This document shows positions 20,112-36,392 of a DNA stretch of 53,101 nt, in pieces (position 1 is the first letter of the stretch; the number at the start of each line of letters is the position of its first letter). The notes under the pieces are model-generated. The model had not been told where the DNA came from. It saw nothing but the letters and a program-made list of their open reading frames with translations, and did no database searches. Both the position numbers and the translations under genes were made by a program. The DNA comes from Salinivirgaceae bacterium (GTDB taxonomy: Bacteria; Bacteroidota; Bacteroidia; Bacteroidales; SZUA-534): positions 1-53,101 of the forward strand of contig JAEINW010000011.1 of assembly GCA_016342715.1 (NCBI GenBank). Reading direction: 5' to 3'.

Positions 20112-20115
20112 TTTA

Positions 20116-20967
20116 CTATTCAGTTTCAAGCAATTCAATTTCAAATATTAAGGTTGTATATGGTGGTATGGGGCCATTTTGAACACCACCGTAAGCTAAA
20201 TGTGATGGAATTACCAATTTATATTTACCTCCCACATTCATATATGATAGACCTTCGTCCCATCCTTGAATGACTTCTCCCAATCCATATCTAAAAATAT
20301 ACGGTTTCTCTCTTTCATACGACGAATCGAATATATTCCCATCGATGAAATAACCCATATAATGTACACTTACTTTTTTTCCAGGTTCGGGTTTTTTGCC
20401 AGTTCCTTTTCGCAACTCAAGCACATACATTCCACTTGTGGTTGGCTCAATGGTAATATTTGTTTTTTCCAGAAACTCATTAAGCATTCTTTCTTCATAC
20501 TTTTCTCCAGAAATATAATGCGTTTGTCTTTCTGTTTTAAAGTCTTCATACGACTTAATATCAACCAGCTTTATATAAAAGGTTAACATTGCATCTGAAT
20601 TAAATCGTTCTGGTAAAGACTCTTTTCGCGATTTTGTATAATAGCTCTTGGCTTTTATTAAAAAAATAGCACTATCACCCTTGTGCATCATCGCTAATGC
20701 ATCCTCAATACTTCCTCCTTCGTGCGATGGCTTTTTAAGCTGCGTGCGAAACAAGTCTGATTCTTCAATTACATTTCCTGAAGCATCGGTATATTTAAAT
20801 TTAATGGAAAGCACATCTCCTTCTATCGGTTTTTGATTATCGGTATTTTCAATAATAAATTTAAAACTCAAGCCCGAGTCATCGATTTTAAACTTTGAAC
20901 CACAACTCACACATATCGAAAAACAAAAAACGGCAATTAATAAATTAAAAATCTTCATTTTAAACAC
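20116..20967 (-). CDS. FKBP-type peptidyl-prolyl isomerase lipoprotein
   Basis: SICVSCGSKF lipobox; C-terminal GKKVSVHYMGYFIDGNIFDSSYER..VIQGWDEGLSYM..PPYTTLIFEIELLE. Confidence 0.93.
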   Translation of the reverse strand: MFKMKIFNLLIAVFCFSICVSCGSKFKIDDSGLSFKFIIENTDNQKPIEGDVLSIKFKYTDASGNVIEESDLFRTQLKKPSHEGGSIEDALAMMHKGDSAIFLIKAKSYYTKSRKESLPERFNSDAMLTFYIKLVDIKSYEDFKTERQTHYISGEKYEERMLNEFLEKTNITIEPTTSGMYVLELRKGTGKKPEPGKKVSVHYMGYFIDGNIFDSSYEREKPYIFRYGLGEVIQGWDEGLSYMNVGGKYKLVIPSHLAYGGVQNGPIPPYTTLIFEIELLETE

Positions 20968-21032
20968 ACTATTTACTATATAATTATTGAATCAAAAAAT
21001 ATCTACTAATTTAAAATGCTTGGAAAGCAACC

Positions 21033-21932
21033 TTATTCCTCCTCTTCAAAAACTCGAGCTTCAGCTTTGAGTAATTCAAGTTCATAAATAACCGATGTAA
21101 AGGGTGGAATTATACCAGTTGATGAACCTTTATCGCCCCATGCAAGATCAGAAGGAAGGATAATAATAGCCTTTTCACCTTCACGCATTTTTCCAATGGC
21201 ATCTTCTAATCCAGGTATTACCTGCATTTCGGTTCCGTAAACAAATTCAAAAGGTTGGTTTCGTTTATTGGTTGAATCAAAGAATTTTCCATTTAGAAAT
21301 TTACCTTCGTAATTTACAGTGACAATGTCACCTAATTCAACAGGCTTACCGGTTCCTTCGTGAGTTGAAATAAAATACATACCCGATTCTGAAGGCTCCA
21401 CATCAATTTTTTCCTCTTGAATAAATCTACTTAAAACTAATTTTTCATATTCACCAAAATCTTCAATCCATTTTAAAAATTCTGCTTTATCTTTAGCATA
21501 CTGACTTTCTGTTCTAATTTCATCCATTCGGATTTCTATTTTCAAGGGATCACCATGTTTAATAAAACGAGGAATATTTGCTTGTAAGGTTTTTTCAAAA
21601 AAGTCTTTTGTATCTATTATAAATGACGCACTGTCACCTTCACTTAACATTAAAAAGCACTCATCAATCGATCCATTAAAATCAGGATTTGTTAGTTGAA
21701 AAGTTCTATTTCCAGCAAAAAATATGCTATCGGAAACGGTGATGTATTTTACATCAACGGTTACATAATCGGAGGGTGCTGGCGGCTTTATGTTTTCTCC
21801 AATTTTTTGTAATTTAAAATAAATTCCAGTTTTTGTTTTAGAGTACCCTGGATGTCTTTCAAAAAGTCCGCAAGAACTAAAGATCACCATACTCAAAATT
21901 ATCAAAAAAATGTTCTTCATATTTTGAGGCAT
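21033..21932 (-). CDS. FKBP-type peptidyl-prolyl isomerase lipoprotein
   Basis: IFSSCGLFERHPG lipobox; GDIVTVNYEGKFLNGKFFDSTNKR..IPPFTSVIYELELLKAE. Confidence 0.92.
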   Translation of the reverse strand: MPQNMKNIFLIILSMVIFSSCGLFERHPGYSKTKTGIYFKLQKIGENIKPPAPSDYVTVDVKYITVSDSIFFAGNRTFQLTNPDFNGSIDECFLMLSEGDSASFIIDTKDFFEKTLQANIPRFIKHGDPLKIEIRMDEIRTESQYAKDKAEFLKWIEDFGEYEKLVLSRFIQEEKIDVEPSESGMYFISTHEGTGKPVELGDIVTVNYEGKFLNGKFFDSTNKRNQPFEFVYGTEMQVIPGLEDAIGKMREGEKAIIILPSDLAWGDKGSSTGIIPPFTSVIYELELLKAEARVFEEEE

Positions 21933-22508
21933 TTAATAGTTGGTTAATTTAATCAATTCTGTTTGATAAACAATAATTGAACGTGGAGGAATTTTATTGT
22001 TATCGCCCAATAAGCCATGTGCCAAATGTGGTGGCATTATAAATCTTCCTTTGTCACCAACGCCCATTAATAATATTGCTTCTTCTAAGCCTGATTCAAC
22101 ACCACCTTGTCCAACTTTGAATTTCATAACTCCTAAGCTATCTGATGTATAACAAAGTGTGCCATCTAATAAATTAATTTGATATTTTAAATGAGCAATT
22201 TTCTTTTCTTTAGTTTTTTCGCCATCTTTTTTATCATAAATCTGGTACCACATGCCTGTTTCAGAAACTTTCATATCCCAATTCCGTCGTTTAACATAGC
22301 TTTCTATTCTATCTTGATCAAGATCGACCAAACCTTTATTTGCCTGTAATAAATTCTCTTTGTACTGCTTAGGCGTTGCGGTATTTCTATTATTCTTGTT
22401 TTGCGAACAAGCAATAGTTACAATTAGCGAAAACAGAATAATTGGAATTAAAATATTACGATTTATTTTGCTTAAGAAATTTCTCATATTTTGGCAGAAT
22501 TTCTTCAA
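21933..22508 (-). CDS. FKBP-type peptidyl-prolyl isomerase lipoprotein (GldI-like size and context)
   Basis: TIACSQNKNN lipobox; AHLKYQINLLDGTLCYTSD..GVESGLEEAILLMGVGDKGRFIMPPHLAHGLLGDNNKIPPRSIIVYQTELIKL. Start may be internal (MRNFLSK, about 22487). Confidence 0.85.
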   Translation of the reverse strand: MKKFCQNMRNFLSKINRNILIPIILFSLIVTIACSQNKNNRNTATPKQYKENLLQANKGLVDLDQDRIESYVKRRNWDMKVSETGMWYQIYDKKDGEKTKEKKIAHLKYQINLLDGTLCYTSDSLGVMKFKVGQGGVESGLEEAILLMGVGDKGRFIMPPHLAHGLLGDNNKIPPRSIIVYQTELIKLTNY

Positions 22509-23490
22509 ATTTATTAATTGTTTCTGACAATCCTAATTTACTTTCGCCTCCAGCTGCATTTATGTGGCCTCCTCCATTAAAATTTTCCTTCGATACTATA
22601 TTTGCTGGAAAACTACCTTTCGATCGGAAAGAACATTTGGTAACTCCCTCTTTTTCAATAAATATGGCTGAAAAAACAACATTGTGAATGGATAAGGGGT
22701 AATTTACAAAACCTTCGGTATCACCAGGTTGAAAGTTGTAGTTTTCTAAATCTTTTTTTGAAAGAAAAATATAAGCAGCCTGATATTCTGGAAGTACACG
22801 CAAATTTGTATTAATTGCATGGCCAAGTAATCGCAAGCGCGATTCAGAATAATTATTGTAAATCTTATCAGTAATATAATCTTTATCAATTTCTCTTTTA
22901 AGTAAATTGCTAACAATTCCAAAGGTAATGGGGTTTGAAGAATTGTAGCTAAATGAGCCAGTGTCGGTCATAATTCCCACAAACAAACATTCGGCGATAG
23001 TTTTATTAATGTCTTCAAGCGAAAAAACCGATTCAATAAATTCATAAACCATTTCAGCGGTTGAACTTGCTGAAGTACGGCTGTATATTAATTCAGCTAT
23101 TTCTTCAGGATTTGGATGATGGTCGATTAAAATTTTTGCTGCCTTAGAATTTATAATTTTATCACCCATATCGGACAAACGACTACGGTGATTAAAATCA
23201 AGCATTAAAAACAAATCGGCTTGATCTAAAATCTCAAGGCCTTTTTCCTTATTTAATTCAAAATTTAATATTTCGGCATAAGCATTCATCCAATTTAAAT
23301 AAACCGGAAGCTGATTGGGGACAACAAAGACCACATTTTTATTTTTATTTTTTAGCAAATGATACAATGCCAACCCTGATCCAATGGCATCGCCATCGGG
23401 GTTTTTATGTGATACTATTACAATATTTTTTGCTTGAGAAATATCTTGTTGTGCTTTTTCAACAAACTTTACATCTAATTTTTCCAACAC
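22456..23490 (-). CDS. DHH/DHHA1 phosphoesterase, NrnA-like oligoribonuclease/pAp phosphatase
   Basis: SHKNPDGDAIGSGLALYHLL, LMLDFNHRSRL, ILIDHHPNP, FNGGGHINAAGG. Confidence 0.93.
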   Translation of the reverse strand: MLEKLDVKFVEKAQQDISQAKNIVIVSHKNPDGDAIGSGLALYHLLKNKNKNVVFVVPNQLPVYLNWMNAYAEILNFELNKEKGLEILDQADLFLMLDFNHRSRLSDMGDKIINSKAAKILIDHHPNPEEIAELIYSRTSASSTAEMVYEFIESVFSLEDINKTIAECLFVGIMTDTGSFSYNSSNPITFGIVSNLLKREIDKDYITDKIYNNYSESRLRLLGHAINTNLRVLPEYQAAYIFLSKKDLENYNFQPGDTEGFVNYPLSIHNVVFSAIFIEKEGVTKCSFRSKGSFPANIVSKENFNGGGHINAAGGESKLGLSETINKFEEILPKYEKFLKQNKS

Positions 23491-23582
23491 CTTATGAATT
23501 TAATTGCTTGCATTTATTATAAACTTCGCAAATATAAGGCATATTTAAAATAATTGTTCAGATAAATTGAAAGGATGCGTTA

Positions 23583-23942
23583 TTATTTCAGTGACATTTG
23601 CATACTTACGATGCTATTGATTTGATACAGAAACCATCCGATTAATCCAGAAATTGTAAAATAAAGAAAAACTTGTGCAAAACCAGGATAATAAATATCA
23701 ATACTTGCAATGAATGATGTTTGAAAATACGAAAAAATATATAACAATTTTATGGCTAACAAACTTGCCAAACCAACGAAAATCCACGATCTTCTTAGAT
23801 ATTTTTTCGCTAATTTATTTTTCACTTCAAGAGCAATAACTTGATTCATTATAACACTAGTTAAATCAAATCTAGAGTTGCCCTTTGAAGCTTTTTGCAA
23901 TAGTTTTTGTAACTCCTGATCTCTTTCTTCCTTTTTCATCAC
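23583..23942 (-). CDS. Small two-TM membrane protein downstream of ECF sigma factor
   Basis: 119 aa with two hydrophobic segments; starts directly after the sigma gene. Confidence 0.65.
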   Translation of the reverse strand: MMKKEERDQELQKLLQKASKGNSRFDLTSVIMNQVIALEVKNKLAKKYLRRSWIFVGLASLLAIKLLYIFSYFQTSFIASIDIYYPGFAQVFLYFTISGLIGWFLYQINSIVSMQMSLK

Positions 23943-28336: not shown

Positions 28337-28486
28337 GCAAATTAATTTCTGTTAGTTAATATCTGCCTGAACCAGTTGGCAAGGCAGCAATAATTTTTCC
28401 TTGTGAACTATTACTCACAGCCTGCCCATATTCCCTCGGGGAACATTTTGAAAATAAATTATGGCTGTGAGTAAAAATTAATTTGC
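28337..28486. repeat. Interrupted 24-bp palindrome
   Basis: GCAAATTAATTT (28337-28348) plus TTACTCACAGCC (28411-28422) pair with the contiguous GGCTGTGAGTAA-AAATTAATTTGC (28463-28486). Confidence 0.75.
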
Positions 28487-28555
28487 GGACTTTCAAATAC
28501 AAATCAAGTTTGCAATCGCACCGTTTTACAGTTTTACTATTTTTTTATAGGTTTT

Positions 28556-28564
28556 GTTACCCAA
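28556..28564 (-). repeat. TTGGGTAAC boundary motif, copy 1
   Basis: GTTACCCAA on +. Confidence 0.55.
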
Positions 28565-28683
28565 TGTAGTTTCCAATTAATTCTTTTGTAACTATTTAAT
28601 GTTGATGTTTCCCTTTAACTATACGCCATTGGAATAACAAAAATCATCCTATTGCTCAATCCACATTTATCATTAGTACATGT

Positions 28684-29616
28684 CTAATCTCTTATACACC
28701 TAACCGAGTATCCATGGCTCTTAGTATAATTGTACCAAAACGTACTGGCATATATATAATTAACAGATAGTACCCATGCATTGGCATCATCAAACTGAGT
28801 TGAAGACCACCAACGACCTCCATCTCCCAAACTATGAAACAAATCACTGCGACAGCCTCCAGGTAACGCTGTAAAACCGCTACTATTATTTGCACCTTCG
28901 TTCGGACTATTCCAATGAGAAGTTCCACTTTCTTTTAGCTTACCTCCTGCAACTTCTTCCCCACCAAGAAAATCAACTAGGGCAATCCATTCTTCATCTG
29001 TTGGAATGTGCCAACCTTTAGGGCATAATTTATTTGTATTCACTGCATGCCAGTTATAAAGGGCTCCATAAGTGTCGCTATACATTGCCTTATTGTTATC
29101 AAACCAACAAAAAGCTGATGTTGAGAGGGTATTCCATGCAATATCATTTTCTTCCAATGGAATAGAAGTACCATCATTATTTTTGGTTGTTTTTAGGTTT
29201 TCTCCCATCCATAATTGATTTCCTATTTTAACTATTGAATAAGTATTACCTTCAATATCCACTAGAACAGAGCTTAGAGTAATAAAAAAACTTGTTATCT
29301 TACCTGTTGGATTGTGGATGACTTTTATATCGGTTGATTCAGAAAGAATCGAACCATTTTCCGGTGAAGTGCTTATATCTCTGTTTTCAAAATCAGAATA
29401 AATAATATTTTCTGTTTGCCCATTATCAAATGCGAGAGTTATCACAAGCCCTGAAAGGTCTAATACTTCAGACATATAGTATTCTACCTTAATTGGAGGT
29501 GTTTTCACTGAAATACTACTTAACTCTATTGGTTTAGGATCATCATTTTCGCATGACATTAATATAAATAGAATTCCTATGACTAAAAAAGTAGGGTTAA
29601 ATTTTTTCTCTCTCAT
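28684..29616 (-). CDS. Lipoprotein with FISUMP (Fibrobacter succinogenes major paralogous) domain
   Basis: Lipobox ILMSCEND; IGNQLWMGENLKTTKNNDGTSIP, YGALYNWHAVNTNKLCPKGWHIPTDEEW, WWSSTQFD, GYSVRCIRD. Confidence 0.9.
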   Translation of the reverse strand: MREKKFNPTFLVIGILFILMSCENDDPKPIELSSISVKTPPIKVEYYMSEVLDLSGLVITLAFDNGQTENIIYSDFENRDISTSPENGSILSESTDIKVIHNPTGKITSFFITLSSVLVDIEGNTYSIVKIGNQLWMGENLKTTKNNDGTSIPLEENDIAWNTLSTSAFCWFDNNKAMYSDTYGALYNWHAVNTNKLCPKGWHIPTDEEWIALVDFLGGEEVAGGKLKESGTSHWNSPNEGANNSSGFTALPGGCRSDLFHSLGDGGRWWSSTQFDDANAWVLSVNYIYASTFWYNYTKSHGYSVRCIRD

Positions 29617-29662
29617 TTGTCTGAGTATTAATTAGTATTCATACATTAATTATGCGCTGAAT

Positions 29663-29793
29663 TGGGTAACGGTTTGAATAAACGCAGTAAGGGTTTTAAA
29701 TACTAAAACTTTCTGTTAACACTAACTTAGTTTAATGAACCTAACTTTGAGTTTAGCAATTTGCCCTTATTGCGTTTATTTTGAGTTCCCCAA
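29663..29793. repeat. Long inverted repeat carrying TTGGGnAAC motifs (boundary motif copies 2 and 3)
   Basis: TTGGGTAAC..AATAAACGCAGTAAGGG (29663-29694) and CCCTTATTGCGTTTATT..GTTCCCCAA (29764-29793); 16/17 in the inner stem. Confidence 0.75.
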
Positions 29794-29813
29794 CGTACTC
29801 CTTTCATCCATTC

Positions 29814-30458
29814 TTATTCTTTCATTATACGTTTTATTAATTTTCCTTTATTAGTTTCAATATTCAGAATATAAACACCTGTTTTAACTTCATATAAACT
29901 CAATTCATTTAAAGGTTTATTAACTTCAATAATTTTAGAACCTAATATATTAAATAAACAAATTGATAAAATCTGTATATCATTGTTTACTTCAAAAAAC
30001 AAAATATCACTTGCTGGATTTGGGTAAATACTGACAAGTTTTGTTAGTTCATTTTCAGAATTTGGTAAAACAACAGTTTGCGTTAAAGGTGTTGTAAATT
30101 CTAATGTCGCAGTATCCGTTAGTGAATAATAATCACAAGTTTCCTGTGAAATAGAATTGTAAATTTCTACGTTTAAAGTATAATTATTACTGCCAGGGTC
30201 GATAGGAATTTGTATAATTCTATCATCGCATATTACAACTGTTGCTTCTGTAAACCAATAACATACAGATAAGTTAATGGTATCGTCAACAACACTATAT
30301 GTATGGCTTAAATAACCTATTTCATATCCTTCACAGACTTCTAATGTAACATCGATTGCTTCTATATCAGATGGTGTTACACTTACATTCTCTATTGTTT
30401 GACCATTTATCATCATTAAAAACAATGAAAATAAACTCGTTAAAAATATTTTTTTCAT
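29814..30458 (-). CDS. Secreted protein with T9SS type A C-terminal sorting domain
   Basis: Signal MKKIFLTSLFSLFLMMINGQ (ORF track start is 30506); C-terminus LVSIYPNPASDILFFEV..GVYILNIETNKGKLIKRIMKE. Confidence 0.85.
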   Translation of the reverse strand: MKKIFLTSLFSLFLMMINGQTIENVSVTPSDIEAIDVTLEVCEGYEIGYLSHTYSVVDDTINLSVCYWFTEATVVICDDRIIQIPIDPGSNNYTLNVEIYNSISQETCDYYSLTDTATLEFTTPLTQTVVLPNSENELTKLVSIYPNPASDILFFEVNNDIQILSICLFNILGSKIIEVNKPLNELSLYEVKTGVYILNIETNKGKLIKRIMKE

Positions 30459-30526
30459 GATAATATAATTTAAAAAGTTAATTAAAACTGTGAGTTGTAC
30501 AATCAACTCACAGTTTTTCTAAAATT

Positions 30527-33500
30527 TTAATCTTTTAATAATGTTTTAGCATCAACTATTTGACCATCGCAAACTAATGCAACTGTGTAAAATCCAAATT
30601 GATAACTTGAAATATCAATTGTGGTTTCAAATATTGATGTATCTAAAATATAATTATTTGATGTACCAGTATTTGTGCCTATTACCATTAAATAGGCAGA
30701 AGTGGCATCTTGTGCTTTATAATTAATCGTTACTTGATTTGATGCTGGATTTGGAACTAAAGGTTCCAATGAATACGGATTTACTTTTACTTCTATCTCA
30801 TCATAATCTTTATAGCCATCAGTATCGGCAATAACTTCTAATTTATACTTTTTGGTTATGTTTGGTGAAACGGTTAAATCTTTTCCGGTATAAATTAAAT
30901 TACCTTCCAAGTCATACCAGTTGTAAATAGCGGCTTCACTGATTTCTTCAGCACTTATTGTAATACTTTCATTTTTATCAATTTCTTTATCTTCGCCTGC
31001 ATCTGCATCAAAGATTGGTCTTGGTTTTTTTCTAATGATAAATGTTTCACCACCAATTACTTCACCGGTAGAAGCGTCTTTTTGAATTACATGATAAGTA
31101 TATTCTGTTTTATCAGTAATTTCTTTTGTTAAAAAATTAAAATCTAAAGTCAATAATCCCATTTCGTTGGGTTCAAACTGAATATTATCAAGAATTACGT
31201 TATTACCTTTAACTAATTTTTTATTTTCTTCATAAGTGGGATCTATTAATTGGGCTTGTTTTCCACCATGTTCCCAAGCATTGAAAAGAATGTCATCCAT
31301 TTTTATTGAAACTTCTGCTTCGTCAAAAAGTGCTTTTCCTTGTTCGTTGGTTGCTTTTTGAAGTTCAATAAAAAAAGTTCTTGCTGTATTTGAAATATTT
31401 GAAACAAATACAGATGCCGTTGTTTCAGTTTCAAGGTCAACGATTGTTAGATTCTTCCAAGCCAAATTATTATTATTTCTAACCATTATATTTGGATTTT
31501 CAGTCATAGGTGAAGCCAAAGGATCGTCAGTTGCGTCAATTCTTGACAGTAAACAAAAATGATGAGGGTTATCATTGTCAGAATAATCATCAGGATTTGG
31601 AACAACCCAAGGTAATTCAATAATTACTTCTTGTCCAGGTTCTATTACTGGTATTGTTGCAATATATGGTAATTCACCACCCAAAGGGTCTCCATCATCA
31701 TTTGTTAAAGTACCGTCCCAATTATCTGACCAAGCCAGAGCAGTATTGGCTTTTGCCCAATTTAATGTAAGTGTTTCATCTCCATTTGAAGCAACACAAC
31801 TTTTATTAATGACTCTTACATATATATAATTGGGACTTTCATCACTTTTATATTCAGGGTTTTGGTGCTCTAATCCGTTATCATTTGTGTTTCTTACCCA
31901 AATATCTTCACTTGTCCACATATTATCTGTGGTTGGATTAGGTTCTAAACCCATATCATCTGGTCTGTCTTTTACATACAAATCTAATGTAGGCGAGTTC
32001 ATTTCTTGTGCTAATTGGACTGCCGCAAAAGCATCAACTAACCCATATCCCATTTCTTCGTTCCATGTACCGTTTGGTCTTTCAGAAGTATTATCATAAC
32101 TATAACCGCCAACCTTTTGTGCTGTACTTTCAATAATGTCTCTTACTTGTTCTCCACTTAAACAAGGGTTTACAGATAAAACTAATCCGGCAAGACCTGC
32201 AGCGTGAGGACAAGCAGATGATGTACCATTGAATTTAGAAAAATAATCTAAATAACTTGAATAATTAGGATTGGTTTCATACATTGGATTGTACCCATTA
32301 TTCCCTTGTCTGTCAGTTGTAGGTATTAAAACACCTGGGGCAATTATATCCAATTCAAGCCCGAAAGAACTTCCCCAATTTGTTTCCCCGTCACAAGATG
32401 CTGGGTTTTTTCTTTCACCACAAGGCGACATTGCACCAACAGCCAATATATCTTCATTTGAATTTGCTGGATAATTAACACTGCTATTTGAATTACCCGA
32501 AGAGAAAATAATTATTGTTCCTAAACCATTTCTTCCATTTAAAAGGGCGTTTTCTATAGCATTATCTATAACTTCAAATTGGACACCAGAACGCCAAGAG
32601 TTGCTAATAATATCAGCACCATTATCAACAGCCCAATTAATTCCATCTGCTCTTCTTATCCTACTATTTGCAGTTCCAGAAAGGCTATTACTTATTGACA
32701 TTATTCTACATAATGGAGAAATTCCTGTAACACCTTCATTGTTATCTTTATCTGCACCTATAATTCCTGCACAAGCAGTCCCGTGACTTCCTAAAACTAA
32801 ACTAGGGGACGATAAACTTTCTGTATCAAAACTTAGAGGGTGTAGATTATTAATGTCTGGGTGGTCAAATTCTATTCCATGATCGAGAACAGCAATTGTA
32901 ATATTATTATCTCCTTCTGTAATATTCCATGCATCACACATGTTAATATCTAATCCAACTGTTCCACCATTTTGTCCTGTATTATTTAATCCCCATTGAT
33001 CTGCAAAAAATGGGTCGCTACTACATAGTAAATCATTATATGTTAGTAAATCAGGGACAGATGCAGAAAACAAGCCTGTCTCAAAAAAATAATTTGCAAT
33101 TTCGAGTGAATTTTCTATAGTTGTTTTTGTGCATTTTAGAGTATACCAAAGAGGCATAAATTGATTTTGTTCAACTATAACAACATTTTTGTTATTAGCA
33201 ATAGTTTGTAATGTAGCTAAGTCAGCATTTTGTTTCAATTTAACGTAAAAGAAACTTGAAAGACCAATTCTTTCACCATTTTCTACACTCGTAAAACTTG
33301 GTAAAACAACATCAATTTTATCATTATTTCTGAGAATATTTATTTTTTGATAATATTCTGTATTAGATGGTTCAATTTCAAATTCTAACTCCGACCACTT
33401 GTTTATAATACCATTTATTGATACATTCTCTGCTTCAAGTTCAAACTGTTTAAAATTCAAATCGTTTATAGAAGTTTTTTGAAAATTATTTTCAGCACTT

Positions 33501-33625
33501 ATGTATAAGAATTTTTTATCTAAATTTAGATATATTTTATTTCCTTTGTAGTAGTAATAATCACTTTGAGCAAAAGATATCAAAGGAAGTATTAAAAGGA
33601 ATAAGACTAGTATTTTTATTTTCAT
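30527..33625 (-). CDS. Subtilisin-like S8 serine peptidase with T9SS sorting domain
   Basis: Catalytic motifs AVLDHGIEFDHPDI, GSHGTACAGIIG, FNGTSSACPHAAGLAGL; C-terminal LVPNPASNQVTINYKAQ..FYTVALVCDGQIVDAKTLLKD. Confidence 0.95.
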   Translation of the reverse strand: MKIKILVLFLLILPLISFAQSDYYYYKGNKIYLNLDKKFLYISAENNFQKTSINDLNFKQFELEAENVSINGIINKWSELEFEIEPSNTEYYQKINILRNNDKIDVVLPSFTSVENGERIGLSSFFYVKLKQNADLATLQTIANNKNVVIVEQNQFMPLWYTLKCTKTTIENSLEIANYFFETGLFSASVPDLLTYNDLLCSSDPFFADQWGLNNTGQNGGTVGLDINMCDAWNITEGDNNITIAVLDHGIEFDHPDINNLHPLSFDTESLSSPSLVLGSHGTACAGIIGADKDNNEGVTGISPLCRIMSISNSLSGTANSRIRRADGINWAVDNGADIISNSWRSGVQFEVIDNAIENALLNGRNGLGTIIIFSSGNSNSSVNYPANSNEDILAVGAMSPCGERKNPASCDGETNWGSSFGLELDIIAPGVLIPTTDRQGNNGYNPMYETNPNYSSYLDYFSKFNGTSSACPHAAGLAGLVLSVNPCLSGEQVRDIIESTAQKVGGYSYDNTSERPNGTWNEEMGYGLVDAFAAVQLAQEMNSPTLDLYVKDRPDDMGLEPNPTTDNMWTSEDIWVRNTNDNGLEHQNPEYKSDESPNYIYVRVINKSCVASNGDETLTLNWAKANTALAWSDNWDGTLTNDDGDPLGGELPYIATIPVIEPGQEVIIELPWVVPNPDDYSDNDNPHHFCLLSRIDATDDPLASPMTENPNIMVRNNNNLAWKNLTIVDLETETTASVFVSNISNTARTFFIELQKATNEQGKALFDEAEVSIKMDDILFNAWEHGGKQAQLIDPTYEENKKLVKGNNVILDNIQFEPNEMGLLTLDFNFLTKEITDKTEYTYHVIQKDASTGEVIGGETFIIRKKPRPIFDADAGEDKEIDKNESITISAEEISEAAIYNWYDLEGNLIYTGKDLTVSPNITKKYKLEVIADTDGYKDYDEIEVKVNPYSLEPLVPNPASNQVTINYKAQDATSAYLMVIGTNTGTSNNYILDTSIFETTIDISSYQFGFYTVALVCDGQIVDAKTLLKD

Positions 33626-33774
33626 TGTTTTATGGTTTAAAATTACTAAATGTTTTTCACTTCTCTAATTTCACTTTTAATTATGGCGGGTAGAGATGTA
33701 AAATATCTAGTAACTTAATCCAAATATTTCGTTTTCTGTTTCTGTATTTGTAACCGTTTTCCATTTTTGGTATG

Positions 33775-33783
33775 TTGGGTAAC
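33775..33783 (+). repeat. TTGGGTAAC boundary motif, copy 4
   Basis: GTTGGGTAACGATTTG..CGCATAAGG, similar to 29663-29694. Confidence 0.6.
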
Positions 33784-33859
33784 GATTTGTATATATTCGC
33801 ATAAGGTGTCAATATATTTCATTATTAGCTATATATCTACAACTAATTATTTTGTTAAA

Positions 33860-33884
33860 CGATTAACAAACGACTCGTTAATCG
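33860..33884. repeat. Inverted repeat upstream of the S8 peptidase gene
   Basis: CGATTAAC-aaacgactc-GTTAATCG. Confidence 0.45.
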
Positions 33885-34126
33885 AATAAATTTCAACTTT
33901 ACAATATAAAAATACAATTTTTTTACAGAAACAAAACATAAAAACATAAATATGTCATTATGTTTACACTGTTATAAAATATATTCTCCCCTTTTATCAA
34001 TAGTTTAATGCTATTTAGGTGGATTAATTCTTTCTTATATTAAAACTTCTAACTATCGTTTAATTCAGATTATAAGCGGGTAATGCCGCAACAAAGTTTT
34101 TGTAAAATAATTTTATCCTCCCCAGC

Positions 34127-34163
34127 CCTCCTTAGTAAGGAGGCCTGTCTGCCGATAGGCAGG
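34127..34163. repeat. Double-hairpin intergenic repeat
   Basis: CCTCCTTA-g-TAAGGAGG followed by CCTGtCTGCCgatAGGCAGG. Confidence 0.6.
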
Positions 34164-34235
34164 GAGTTAGTGAGTACTTTCAATGAAACTTGTGTGGTTA
34201 AAAATTGAAGCAAATTTTAAAATTTTATTCAATGT

Positions 34236-34287
34236 AGTTACTCACTTCGTTCACGAGAATGCTTTATTATTCGCAAGTGCTCATGAG
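34236..34287 (-). repeat. Two tandem CTCATGAGC-type dispersed units
   Basis: Minus strand CTCATGAGCACTTGCGAATAA and CTCGTGAACGAAGTGAGTAAC, 31 nt apart; matches 16500-16550. Confidence 0.6.
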
Positions 34288-34469
34288 CTTGCAAACAAGG
34301 TTTGCTAAGTTCCACCCTTTTTTAAGGGAGGTTCGGAGGGTTACTTTTTTATCATATAATGGAGTTAAGTCGTCATATAAAATGTTTACAGATTATACAA
34401 TAGTTTCAATCGAAGCACTCTCCATTGCTTACAGATGAGATTCCGACATTAGTTGGGAGAGGGGAAGAA

Positions 34470-34970
34470 CTAAAGTTGTAAAGTGGAACTAAATAACTCC
34501 ACAATTACATTAAGCACATATTTGTAAGCATTCTGCCAATTTTGCTTGTATGAATGCTTTAATTTCTTTTTCTGGTTATCGACAACTTTAATTGAAAGAG
34601 AAACCAAATTTAGCATTAATACATGAGGGTAAAACTATTGAAAAATTTCAATCGCTTTTCTGTAAGCAAAATGCTCAATTTTCATTTTAGCTTTTTAAAA
34701 GCCTCTTCAACTCTCCACCTTTTATTAAAGAGCTAGTTAATGTGTTTGGCTATATGCTTTTGTTGATTGATCAATGAGGAAACAAGAATTTATGTTTCGT
34801 CAGTTTTAATTTGATCTTTGTGACTCGGATTTTTGTTGGATAAGCTTTCATATTGTTCTTAACGGCATTTTCTTTTGGAGACGTGTTCCAATTGCAGATA
34901 AAGTCTATATTATCATTGCCAAGGACTTTTCGAGCAAAAATAGTTTTACTAAAACTTGCATACCGAATTT
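34470..34970 (-). pseudogene. Decayed IS4-family transposase (C-terminal part)
   Basis: Minus-strand fragments YASFSKTIFARKVLGNDNIDFICNWN, NKRWRVEEAFKKLK, KIEHFAYRKAIEIFQ, VLMLNLVSLSIKVVDNQKKKLKHSYKQNWQNAYKYVLNVIVELFSSTLQL*, separated by frameshifts and stops. Confidence 0.8.
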
Positions 34971-35159
34971 GATATTATTACTTAGTTTTACCCATTAAGT
35001 TTTGTTTGCCGATTTTTTGCGGTCTTATACCGAATAATAATACCATACTCTGGGAAAGAAAATTAGTTTTGAACATGATTTTTTTTTATGCTGTTAACAT
35101 AGAAGTTAAATACAAAACAAAAGCAACAAAAATGAGTTATATCATTTAATTTAAGTGAA

Positions 35160-36392
35160 ATGAAAATGTTAGCAATTATATTATTCCTAAGCTTCATTCT
35201 TTGTATTGATATTTATTCCTTTTTTGGATTAAAATCATTTTTTGCCGACCATCTAACTGTTTTTTACATAGTTTATTTCGCCAGTGTGATATTAGGAATC
35301 ATTGGTATTGTTACTATGTTTAAAATGTTTGGCACAGGTGTATTAAACCAAACTGTAATACAAAATGGAATTATTGGCTTAGCCTTTAGTATTATCGTTG
35401 CAAAACTGTTTTTTACTTCATTTTTTTTGGTTGAAGATATCATGCGCGGATTTCTTTGGCTTTTCCAATCGGCGGTTCATTTTCGTTTGGCAGAGTTTAT
35501 TTCACGATCCTATGTTTGGGGATTGGCCTCTTTAATTGTAGGATTAACTTTTATGTTCTTACTGAATTTTGGGGTTTGGTTTGGTAAATATCACTACAAA
35601 GTGCATCATAAAGTTTTGGAATTTGAAAATTTGCCTGCCGCTTTCGATGGTTTTAAAATCGCCCAATTATCTGACCAACACTTAGGTACTTTTGATAGAA
35701 AAAATAAAGTCCAACAGGGCTTAGATATTTTAAAAAACCAAAAGGCCGATTTATTAGTTTTTACTGGAGATATGGTGAACAATAAGGCCGAGGAAGCATT
35801 GCCCTATATTGAAATGTTTAAAGAGCTTGAAGCTCCCTATGGAAAATATACCATTTGGGGAAATCATGATTATGGAGATTATGTGCGCTGGAAAAATGAC
35901 GACGAAAAGGATAATAATTTAGCTAAACTAGAGCAATTAGAAAAGCAAATGGGCTTGGAGTGGCTAAACAATAGGAATGTACCACTAACAAAAGATGGAG
36001 ATACTATTTATTTGGCAGGTGTTGAGAATTGGGGTTTGCGGCCATTTCCTCAGTATGGTAAATTTGAGGAAGCAATTAGGGGGTTAAATTCTGATGATTT
36101 TATCGTGTTACTTTCTCATGATCCTACCCATTGGAGCGAAGTGGTTAACAAAGCAGAAACAAAGGTTGAACTTACATTAAGTGGACATACGCATGGCATG
36201 CAATTTGGATTTGAAATTGGTAAATATCGTTGGAGTCCGGTAAAATATAAATATAAAAACTGGGCCGATTTTCATGAATTTAATAAACGGTTTTTATACG
36301 TAAATAGGGGTTTTGGTCATATTGGCTATCCGGGTAGAGTTGGTATTCGGCCCGAAATTACTGTAATTGAATTGCGAAGAAAGTTAAATTAA
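35160..36392 (+). CDS. Membrane-anchored calcineurin-like metallophosphoesterase
   Basis: N-terminal TMs; IAQLSDQHLGTF, FTGDMVNN, IWGNHDYGDY, LSGHTHGMQ. Confidence 0.93.
   Translation: MKMLAIILFLSFILCIDIYSFFGLKSFFADHLTVFYIVYFASVILGIIGIVTMFKMFGTGVLNQTVIQNGIIGLAFSIIVAKLFFTSFFLVEDIMRGFLWLFQSAVHFRLAEFISRSYVWGLASLIVGLTFMFLLNFGVWFGKYHYKVHHKVLEFENLPAAFDGFKIAQLSDQHLGTFDRKNKVQQGLDILKNQKADLLVFTGDMVNNKAEEALPYIEMFKELEAPYGKYTIWGNHDYGDYVRWKNDDEKDNNLAKLEQLEKQMGLEWLNNRNVPLTKDGDTIYLAGVENWGLRPFPQYGKFEEAIRGLNSDDFIVLLSHDPTHWSEVVNKAETKVELTLSGHTHGMQFGFEIGKYRWSPVKYKYKNWADFHEFNKRFLYVNRGFGHIGYPGRVGIRPEITVIELRRKLN

Follow-up and report, generated by a model that had tools for sequence, protein, structure and literature searches.

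The window analysed here comprises 53,101 nucleotides of contig JAEINW010000011.1 from a Salinivirgaceae bacterium, and the block under study, at positions 28436-33857, holds three genes, all on the minus strand: a Fib_succ_major (FISUMP) lipoprotein gene (28684-29616, 310 aa; PF09603, E = 1.2e-42), a gene for a small protein with a type IX secretion C-terminal sorting domain (29814-30506; PF18962, E = 3.4e-10) and a subtilase gene (30527-33625, 1032 aa; PF00082, E = 8.4e-41). A short motif occurs around these genes at 28556-28564 (-), 29662-29670 (+), 29785-29793 (-, as TTGGGGAAC) and 33775-33783 (+), so that all four copies listed in a preliminary description are present, with the second beginning one base before the start given there. 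We read this block, with a probability of roughly 85%, as a small, partly decayed array of two cassettes (A and B) with three attC-like sites (S1, S2 and S3), belonging to an integron-type system of Bacteroidota.

The nonamer itself is not enriched in the window, with 18 one-mismatch matches against 12.2 expected, and TTGGGTAACG has nine occurrences genome-wide against 25 for the reversed control; it is the arrangement of the copies, not the nonamer, that goes beyond chance. A genome-wide search for the motif had been suggested, but it is a cassette-specific R box and not a genome-wide repeat, which is why the search with TTGGGTAACG yields nothing elsewhere, and the conserved portion of the sites is the inner hairpin together with the AAC and GTT ends. 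The interval 29662-29793 forms a single hairpin in which AATAAACGCA.TAAGGG pairs with CCCTTA.TGCGTTTATT; inward from outer arms of nine bases, it has an unpaired spacer on either side, then a stem of 17 bases interrupted by one mismatch, and an end of 70 bases. Folded as single-stranded DNA, it reaches z scores of -4.85 and -3.96 on the two strands, and none of 200 shuffles was equally stable. Based on this hairpin score and on the covariance model R1, described below, the interval is assigned as S2, the intact attC-like recombination site between cassettes A and B (29662-29793, minus strand; 120 bp from AAC to GTT, 17-bp inner stem), with the boxes R″ TTGGGGAAC and R′ GTTACCCAA in gene orientation. 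R1, from whose training S2 was left out, matched it with 37.9 bits (E = 1.9e-7), and the next match in the window reached 14.8 bits. The order of boxes had been described as unlike attC because two cassette ends were compared instead of the two halves of one site; read site by site, the order is AAC, hairpin and GTT, as in attC. BLASTN with the S2 element found no copy in its own genome or in relatives, because the sequence of the sites diverges while the fold is kept, and Rfam contains no model for these sites.

Every site search was made with R1, which was built from nine aligned sites of the same genome, none of them from the window, and divergent sites such as S1 were probably missed by it (its plus strand corresponds to the minus gene strand). 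A search for the left-arm pattern gave no overall enrichment but revealed an array on contig C125, its sites spaced by about 1.5 kb, and a hairpin scan of the genome provided further sites. The stems of the nine sites covary, with 46 double-change cells against 18.5 after shuffling, and sliding the pairing destroys the signal; for 38 sites fitted to R1, the corresponding values were 207 and 80. About 36 R1 sites were detected in the genome at E < 0.01, many of them in arrays (contigs C125, C174, C81 and others), and sites were found in 214 of 393 genomes of the order, a lower bound obtained with eight candidates scored per genome. The sites are about 120-127 bp in length and consist of AAC, an unpaired spacer, a long stem, a variable end, the returning stem, a second spacer and GTT. 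AAC and GTT ends were present in 103 of the 110 sites examined, and all 103 carried GTTR and YAAC. The conserved fold, variable sequence and AAC/GTT ends that characterise integron attC sites are thus observed in the arrays and in S2.

The ends of the cassettes carry a further pattern, measured by comparing the 12 nt after GTT at a cassette start with the reverse complement of the same cassette's end. Among 13 cassettes of this genome, 6.8 of 12 bases matched on average against 3.65 in other pairings, a value not attained in any of 200,000 permutations, and 65 cassettes from other genomes gave 8.7 against 4.1 (a total of 567 against 269, with a maximum of 325 in 20,000 permutations). The two outer boxes within one site match no better than chance (4.28). 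Such cassette-specific matching is the expected signature of excisable circular cassettes, because an excised circle would join and pair its own two ends. Of 64 units, 62 have their longest open reading frame in the common orientation, and sites are spaced 905 bp apart at the median. In one genome (G363), a 701-bp cassette occurs twice with 100% identity, its edges at GTT(G) and its flanks different (both copies come from one assembly, so that an assembly fault is possible, though unlikely), while two genomes of different families (G034 and G042) share a cassette that is 99% identical inside the AAC boundary of the site and 33% outside. Because the edges of these units fall at GTT, they show, as far as sequence comparison can tell, an exchange point at GTT, as in integrons, and movement of single cassettes. 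Co-orientation, matched ends and duplicated or shared cassettes together reproduce the co-oriented mobile units bounded at GTT that are seen in integrons. In addition, a unit of about 600 bp is repeated with 90-98% identity at several array positions and beside the attI-like site in genome G241 (loci L184-L186).

These observations also bear on a different explanation, in which the hairpins are self-spreading intergenic palindromic repeats, similar to repetitive extragenic palindromic sequences or miniature inverted-repeat transposable elements, or terminators, and the genes between them are incidental. The sites are indeed palindromic, intergenic and numerous. However, matched ends belong to one cassette, not to one site, the duplicated units span from GTT to GTT with the gene included, the inner stem covaries instead of being copied, and the sites in arrays are co-oriented, follow co-oriented genes and have a recombinase at one end. 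This explanation is refuted for the arrays, leaving S1 and S3 alone to it, and is very improbable overall. The cargo of the cassettes is varied, and the suggested theme of secreted or surface proteins is not borne out: products encoded in cassettes of the same genome include a ParE toxin, proteins of the TIR and SLATT kinds, a ClpP homologue and an enzyme of GmrSD type, and outside the window toxin-antitoxin and other genes are found in cassettes as well.

Within the window, cassette A (29670-33781, minus strand) would comprise the subtilase gene, the gene for the small type IX-sorted protein and then S2, bounded by GTT and AAC and with the matched ends GTTCCCCAACGTAC and GTTACCCAACATAC, and cassette B (28444-29669, minus strand) would comprise the FISUMP lipoprotein gene followed by S1, with the matched ends GTTACCCAATGTAG and GTTACCCAATTCAG. 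The inverted motif pair reported at the two ends of each block holds for both, since 9 of 12 bases match in each cassette, and the other pairings in the genome average 3.65, none of 156 reaching nine or more. In both units about nine paired bases are followed by a short mismatch and further pairing. The motif copies are intergenic and bound the genes, so that they are not placed at random relative to genes, which favours cassettes. S1, which closes the FISUMP cassette on its 3′ side (28436-28564, minus strand, start approximate; 117 bp from AAC to GTT), is a degenerate attC-like site, and sequence comparison found it nearly identical to a site on contig C174 in its TATTTTTTATAGGTTTTGTT half, on the GTT side. 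S3, which bounds the first cassette on its upstream side (33775-33857, minus strand, end approximate), is read as a degenerate or truncated site that retains the half CCTTATGCGAATATATACAAATC|GTTACCC and resembles the R′ half of S2; its TATATACAAATCGTT is close to the attI-like TATATACAAATGTT of contig C322, yet it is also similar to S2. Likeness and end matching are the only marks by which S1 and S3 are recognised; they are taken for decayed sites, since the GTT-side half of S1 recurs in the C174 site and the opposite half is preserved in S3. The S1-S2 spacing is below 4 kb and the S2-S3 spacing is about 4.0 kb; a cluster of attC sites lacking an integrase nearby (CALIN) is defined by two or more attC sites separated by less than 4 kb, and the window contains one clear and two degenerate sites.

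A recombinase was found at the heads of such arrays. In the complete genome G241, a tyrosine recombinase (TR) of 288 residues is encoded just beyond the end of the array, and TR relatives occupy the corresponding array end in other genera. Eleven of 13 TR genes were located within 8 kb of a site, against one of 37 other tyrosine recombinases (p = 2e-8), with one of the two exceptions (G042:C2:108025) having a weaker site 1.9 kb on. The genome under study itself contains a TR gene on contig C322, with an attI-like match 88 bp and a site 2 kb further on. When 80 TR-related loci from named genomes were chosen irrespective of sites and then searched with R1, 47 sites were obtained in 19 loci, all from Bacteroidota, with 46 of the 47 downstream of TR and co-oriented (one locus, L283, comes from the genome also included as G189 and is not an independent case), and no R1 site was detected among the loci of other phyla in this set. 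The site-bearing loci include those of Algoriphagus ornithinivorans, Flavobacterium aciduliphilum, Algibacter onchidii, Winogradskyella ursingii and Zunongwangia mangrovi, and a complete plasmid of Chryseobacterium sp. SNU WT5 carries TR with six co-oriented sites. The cassette array of this plasmid (L337) also harbours, at 20113-23895, an IS110-family transposase together with a group II intron, and elements of both kinds are known to home to attC sites.

An attI-like site was sought by predicting the start of the first cassette from its own end and locating the best match downstream of TR. Of 16 arrays, 11 had a match with GTT in register and 9-11 of 12 bases at 24-279 bp past the TR stop codon, and in G241 it lies 787 bp past the stop. 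Among 17 named loci, 15 have such a match 34-320 bp past the stop, with agreement at 8-11 of 12 bases. The bases preceding the attI-like GTT often read TATAWAC.A. As in integrons, most TR arrays thus have an attI-like site adjacent to the recombinase (24-320 bp).

TR contains the domains Phage_int_SAM_4 and Phage_integrase and reaches no curated family cut-off, scoring 167-186 bits with TIGR02249, of which the cut-off is 265. About 40 alignment columns with the IntI insertion are missing from it; the catalytic residues R, K, HxxR, H and Y are present. The phylogenetic tree places TR and IntI together, apart from XerC/XerD (100/100), with IntI monophyletic and the branching among TR rows mostly unresolved; TR is the closest IntI relative found in this analysis, and the closest solved structures to it are 4a8e (XerC-like) and 2a3v (IntI4). 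TR proteins of four loci (L243, L244, L245 and L193) have N-terminal extensions of 85-300 residues with no Pfam domain.

Several observations weigh against reading the block as a cassette array of this system. S1 and S3 show no significant folding (z of +0.5 and -0.6) and no R1 match in the window, S3 reaching 12.3 bits only, and neither a recombinase nor a TR remnant was found near the block, including near S3. The sites do not follow the integron R-box consensus, with GTTRRRY in just 11 and RYYYAAC in 12 of 103, about the chance level once the R or Y is set; many of the genomes surveyed are metagenome bins; TR genes are broken in G082, G212 and G328; and a true IntI is encoded in the same genome on contig C173 (L096, 8676-9641; 470 bits with TIGR02249), having two family sites about 3 kb away with a GmrSD-type gene between. 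The failure of S1 and S3 on both R1 and folding would fit a window in which S2 alone is genuine and S1 and S3 are unrelated sequences of chance likeness. The 9 of 12 matched bases in both cassettes, against none of 156 other pairings at nine or more, the TATTTTTTATAGGTTTTGTT that S1 has in common with the C174 site and the R′ half kept in S3 all argue against this, and we consider it unlikely. Because S1 and S3 are degenerate and the recombinase is absent, the window would represent a decayed two-cassette fragment. The cassette array proposed at the outset is largely upheld, in its cassettes and cassette-specific inverted ends, with only S2 intact; no intact attI-like site was found in the window. 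The suggested search for a tyrosine recombinase likewise succeeded in part, as TR is associated with such arrays, but none lies in the window.

Since the IntI on C173 has two sites nearby, it could have moved the window cassettes rather than TR, in which case the block would be a standard IntI cluster without an integrase and the TR genes would be bystanders. Its score and the two family sites on its contig speak for this. Nevertheless, IntI was found in 6 of 393 genomes of the order compared with 214 of 393 for the sites, five IntI loci fetched from other genomes had no R1 sites beside them, and TR, not IntI, stands at the heads of arrays with the attI-like site directly after it. A standard IntI cluster is accordingly quite improbable, and IntI as the sole driver was rejected on its rarity, the spread of the sites and the site-less IntI loci. 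The preferred reading remains a TR-headed system, and the alternative cassette-shuffling system once suspected at this locus is indeed integron-like and non-standard, with TR rather than IntI heading the arrays.

We infer from sequence that TR catalyses cassette exchange. TR would excise cassettes as circles through exchange at the GTT of two sites and would insert circles at the attI-like GTT just downstream of its own gene; a free cassette would regain a site, the two outer boxes of which are the cassette's own two ends, and one folded strand would be the recombination substrate. The pair in the window may have arisen by insertion away from the platform or by loss of the platform.

The comparison with the nearest relative, G001, of the same family, likewise favours cassettes. 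In G001, NhaA and NDK are followed directly by RecG, with a phosphoesterase 3 kb further, and the corresponding locus has neither an R1 site nor any FISUMP, subtilase or type IX secretion genes. The window instead has YceI and the cassette block after NDK, with RecG 11 kb off in opposite orientation. The block is therefore not fixed at its locus, although G001 does not provide a clean empty site because its locus is also inverted; the proposal that a gene order fixed in relatives would speak against cassettes is answered to this extent. In G029, G005 and G023, synteny with the window was too weak for use. Upstream of the array, 1.3 kb (33860-35160) contain no long open reading frame, and a short minus-strand frame at 34771-34974 appears transposase-like by eye, which fits the IS4 relic of the preliminary description; both this relic and the IS21 relic named there are unconfirmed.

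The system resembles sedentary chromosomal integrons and CALIN (IntI, attI and attC, including the Vibrio-type superintegrons) in its co-oriented cassettes of about 0.9 kb, exchange apparently at GTT, hairpin sites at the 3′ ends of genes with AAC/GTT ends and an unpaired spacer, attI-like site beside a tyrosine recombinase, and cargo of toxin-antitoxin and defence-like genes. Unlike integrons, it has a recombinase without the IntI-specific insertion and below the IntI cut-off, an R box of GTTR with no RRRY preference, end pairing of about 9 nt including GTT followed by a mismatch of 1-2 nt and 4-5 more paired bases, a nearly constant site length (121-127 bp), a recombinase gene mostly co-oriented with the array, and a common occurrence in Bacteroidota. 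Integrons are rare in this phylum (PMC9024848, PMC8618304) and nearly absent in complete-genome surveys, with IntegronFinder 2.0 reporting one complete Bacteroidota integron, in Salinibacter ruber (PMC9024848). TR shares its fold family with XerC/XerD and archaeal XerA, but Xer forms a clade of its own, and other recombinases are seldom near a site, as given above. TR resembles the "Integron-like" subgroup of simple tyrosine recombinases (PMC8138268) and falls on the IntI side of the tree, apart from XerC/XerD; the insertion is called essential for integron function in that paper, the available parts of which name no cassette arrays for insertion-less members. The IntI-specific domain is likewise stated to be needed for activity in PMC9668308, citing Messier and Roy 2001, and in PMC8138268. 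A search of the open-access literature, with subscription papers and preprints outside its reach, found no description of arrays that have an insertion-less recombinase at their head.

Strictly, the system is not an IntI integron, because two defining features, an IntI with the additional domain and the R-box consensus, were tested and are absent; it appears integron-like by every other sequence test made. It was probably overlooked because its recombinase lacks the domain thought essential for integrons. We consider it likely that Bacteroidota hold a widespread integron-type system, with an IntI-lineage recombinase that lacks the insertion held to be required for attC recombination. If so, either attC recombination needs no insertion, or another feature takes its place, such as the extended outer stem or the N-terminal extensions seen in TR, and the TR system could stand near the point at which integrons originated. 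Among natural gene-capture devices, integrons are the best known. On confirmation, roughly half of the genomes sampled in one Bacteroidota order would bear cassettes with toxin-antitoxin and defence-like cargo, with at least one TR-headed array on a complete plasmid, enlarging the known pool of mobile cassettes. The system would also serve as a natural experiment on the need for the IntI-specific domain when folded sites recombine, and would offer candidates for how the integrase arose from Xer-like recombinases.

Relatives of TR were also observed in other settings. Recombinases with 44% identity, one of them annotated as TnpF, are located on many Acinetobacter plasmids, for example NZ_CP041297.1 at 22280-23080. 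On the chromosome of the clostridial Oceanirhabdus sp. W0125-5 (L301, 433-6880), four segments of 600-740 bp, 84-90% alike and without R1 sites, lie beside a TR-like recombinase and possibly represent another type of cassette array.

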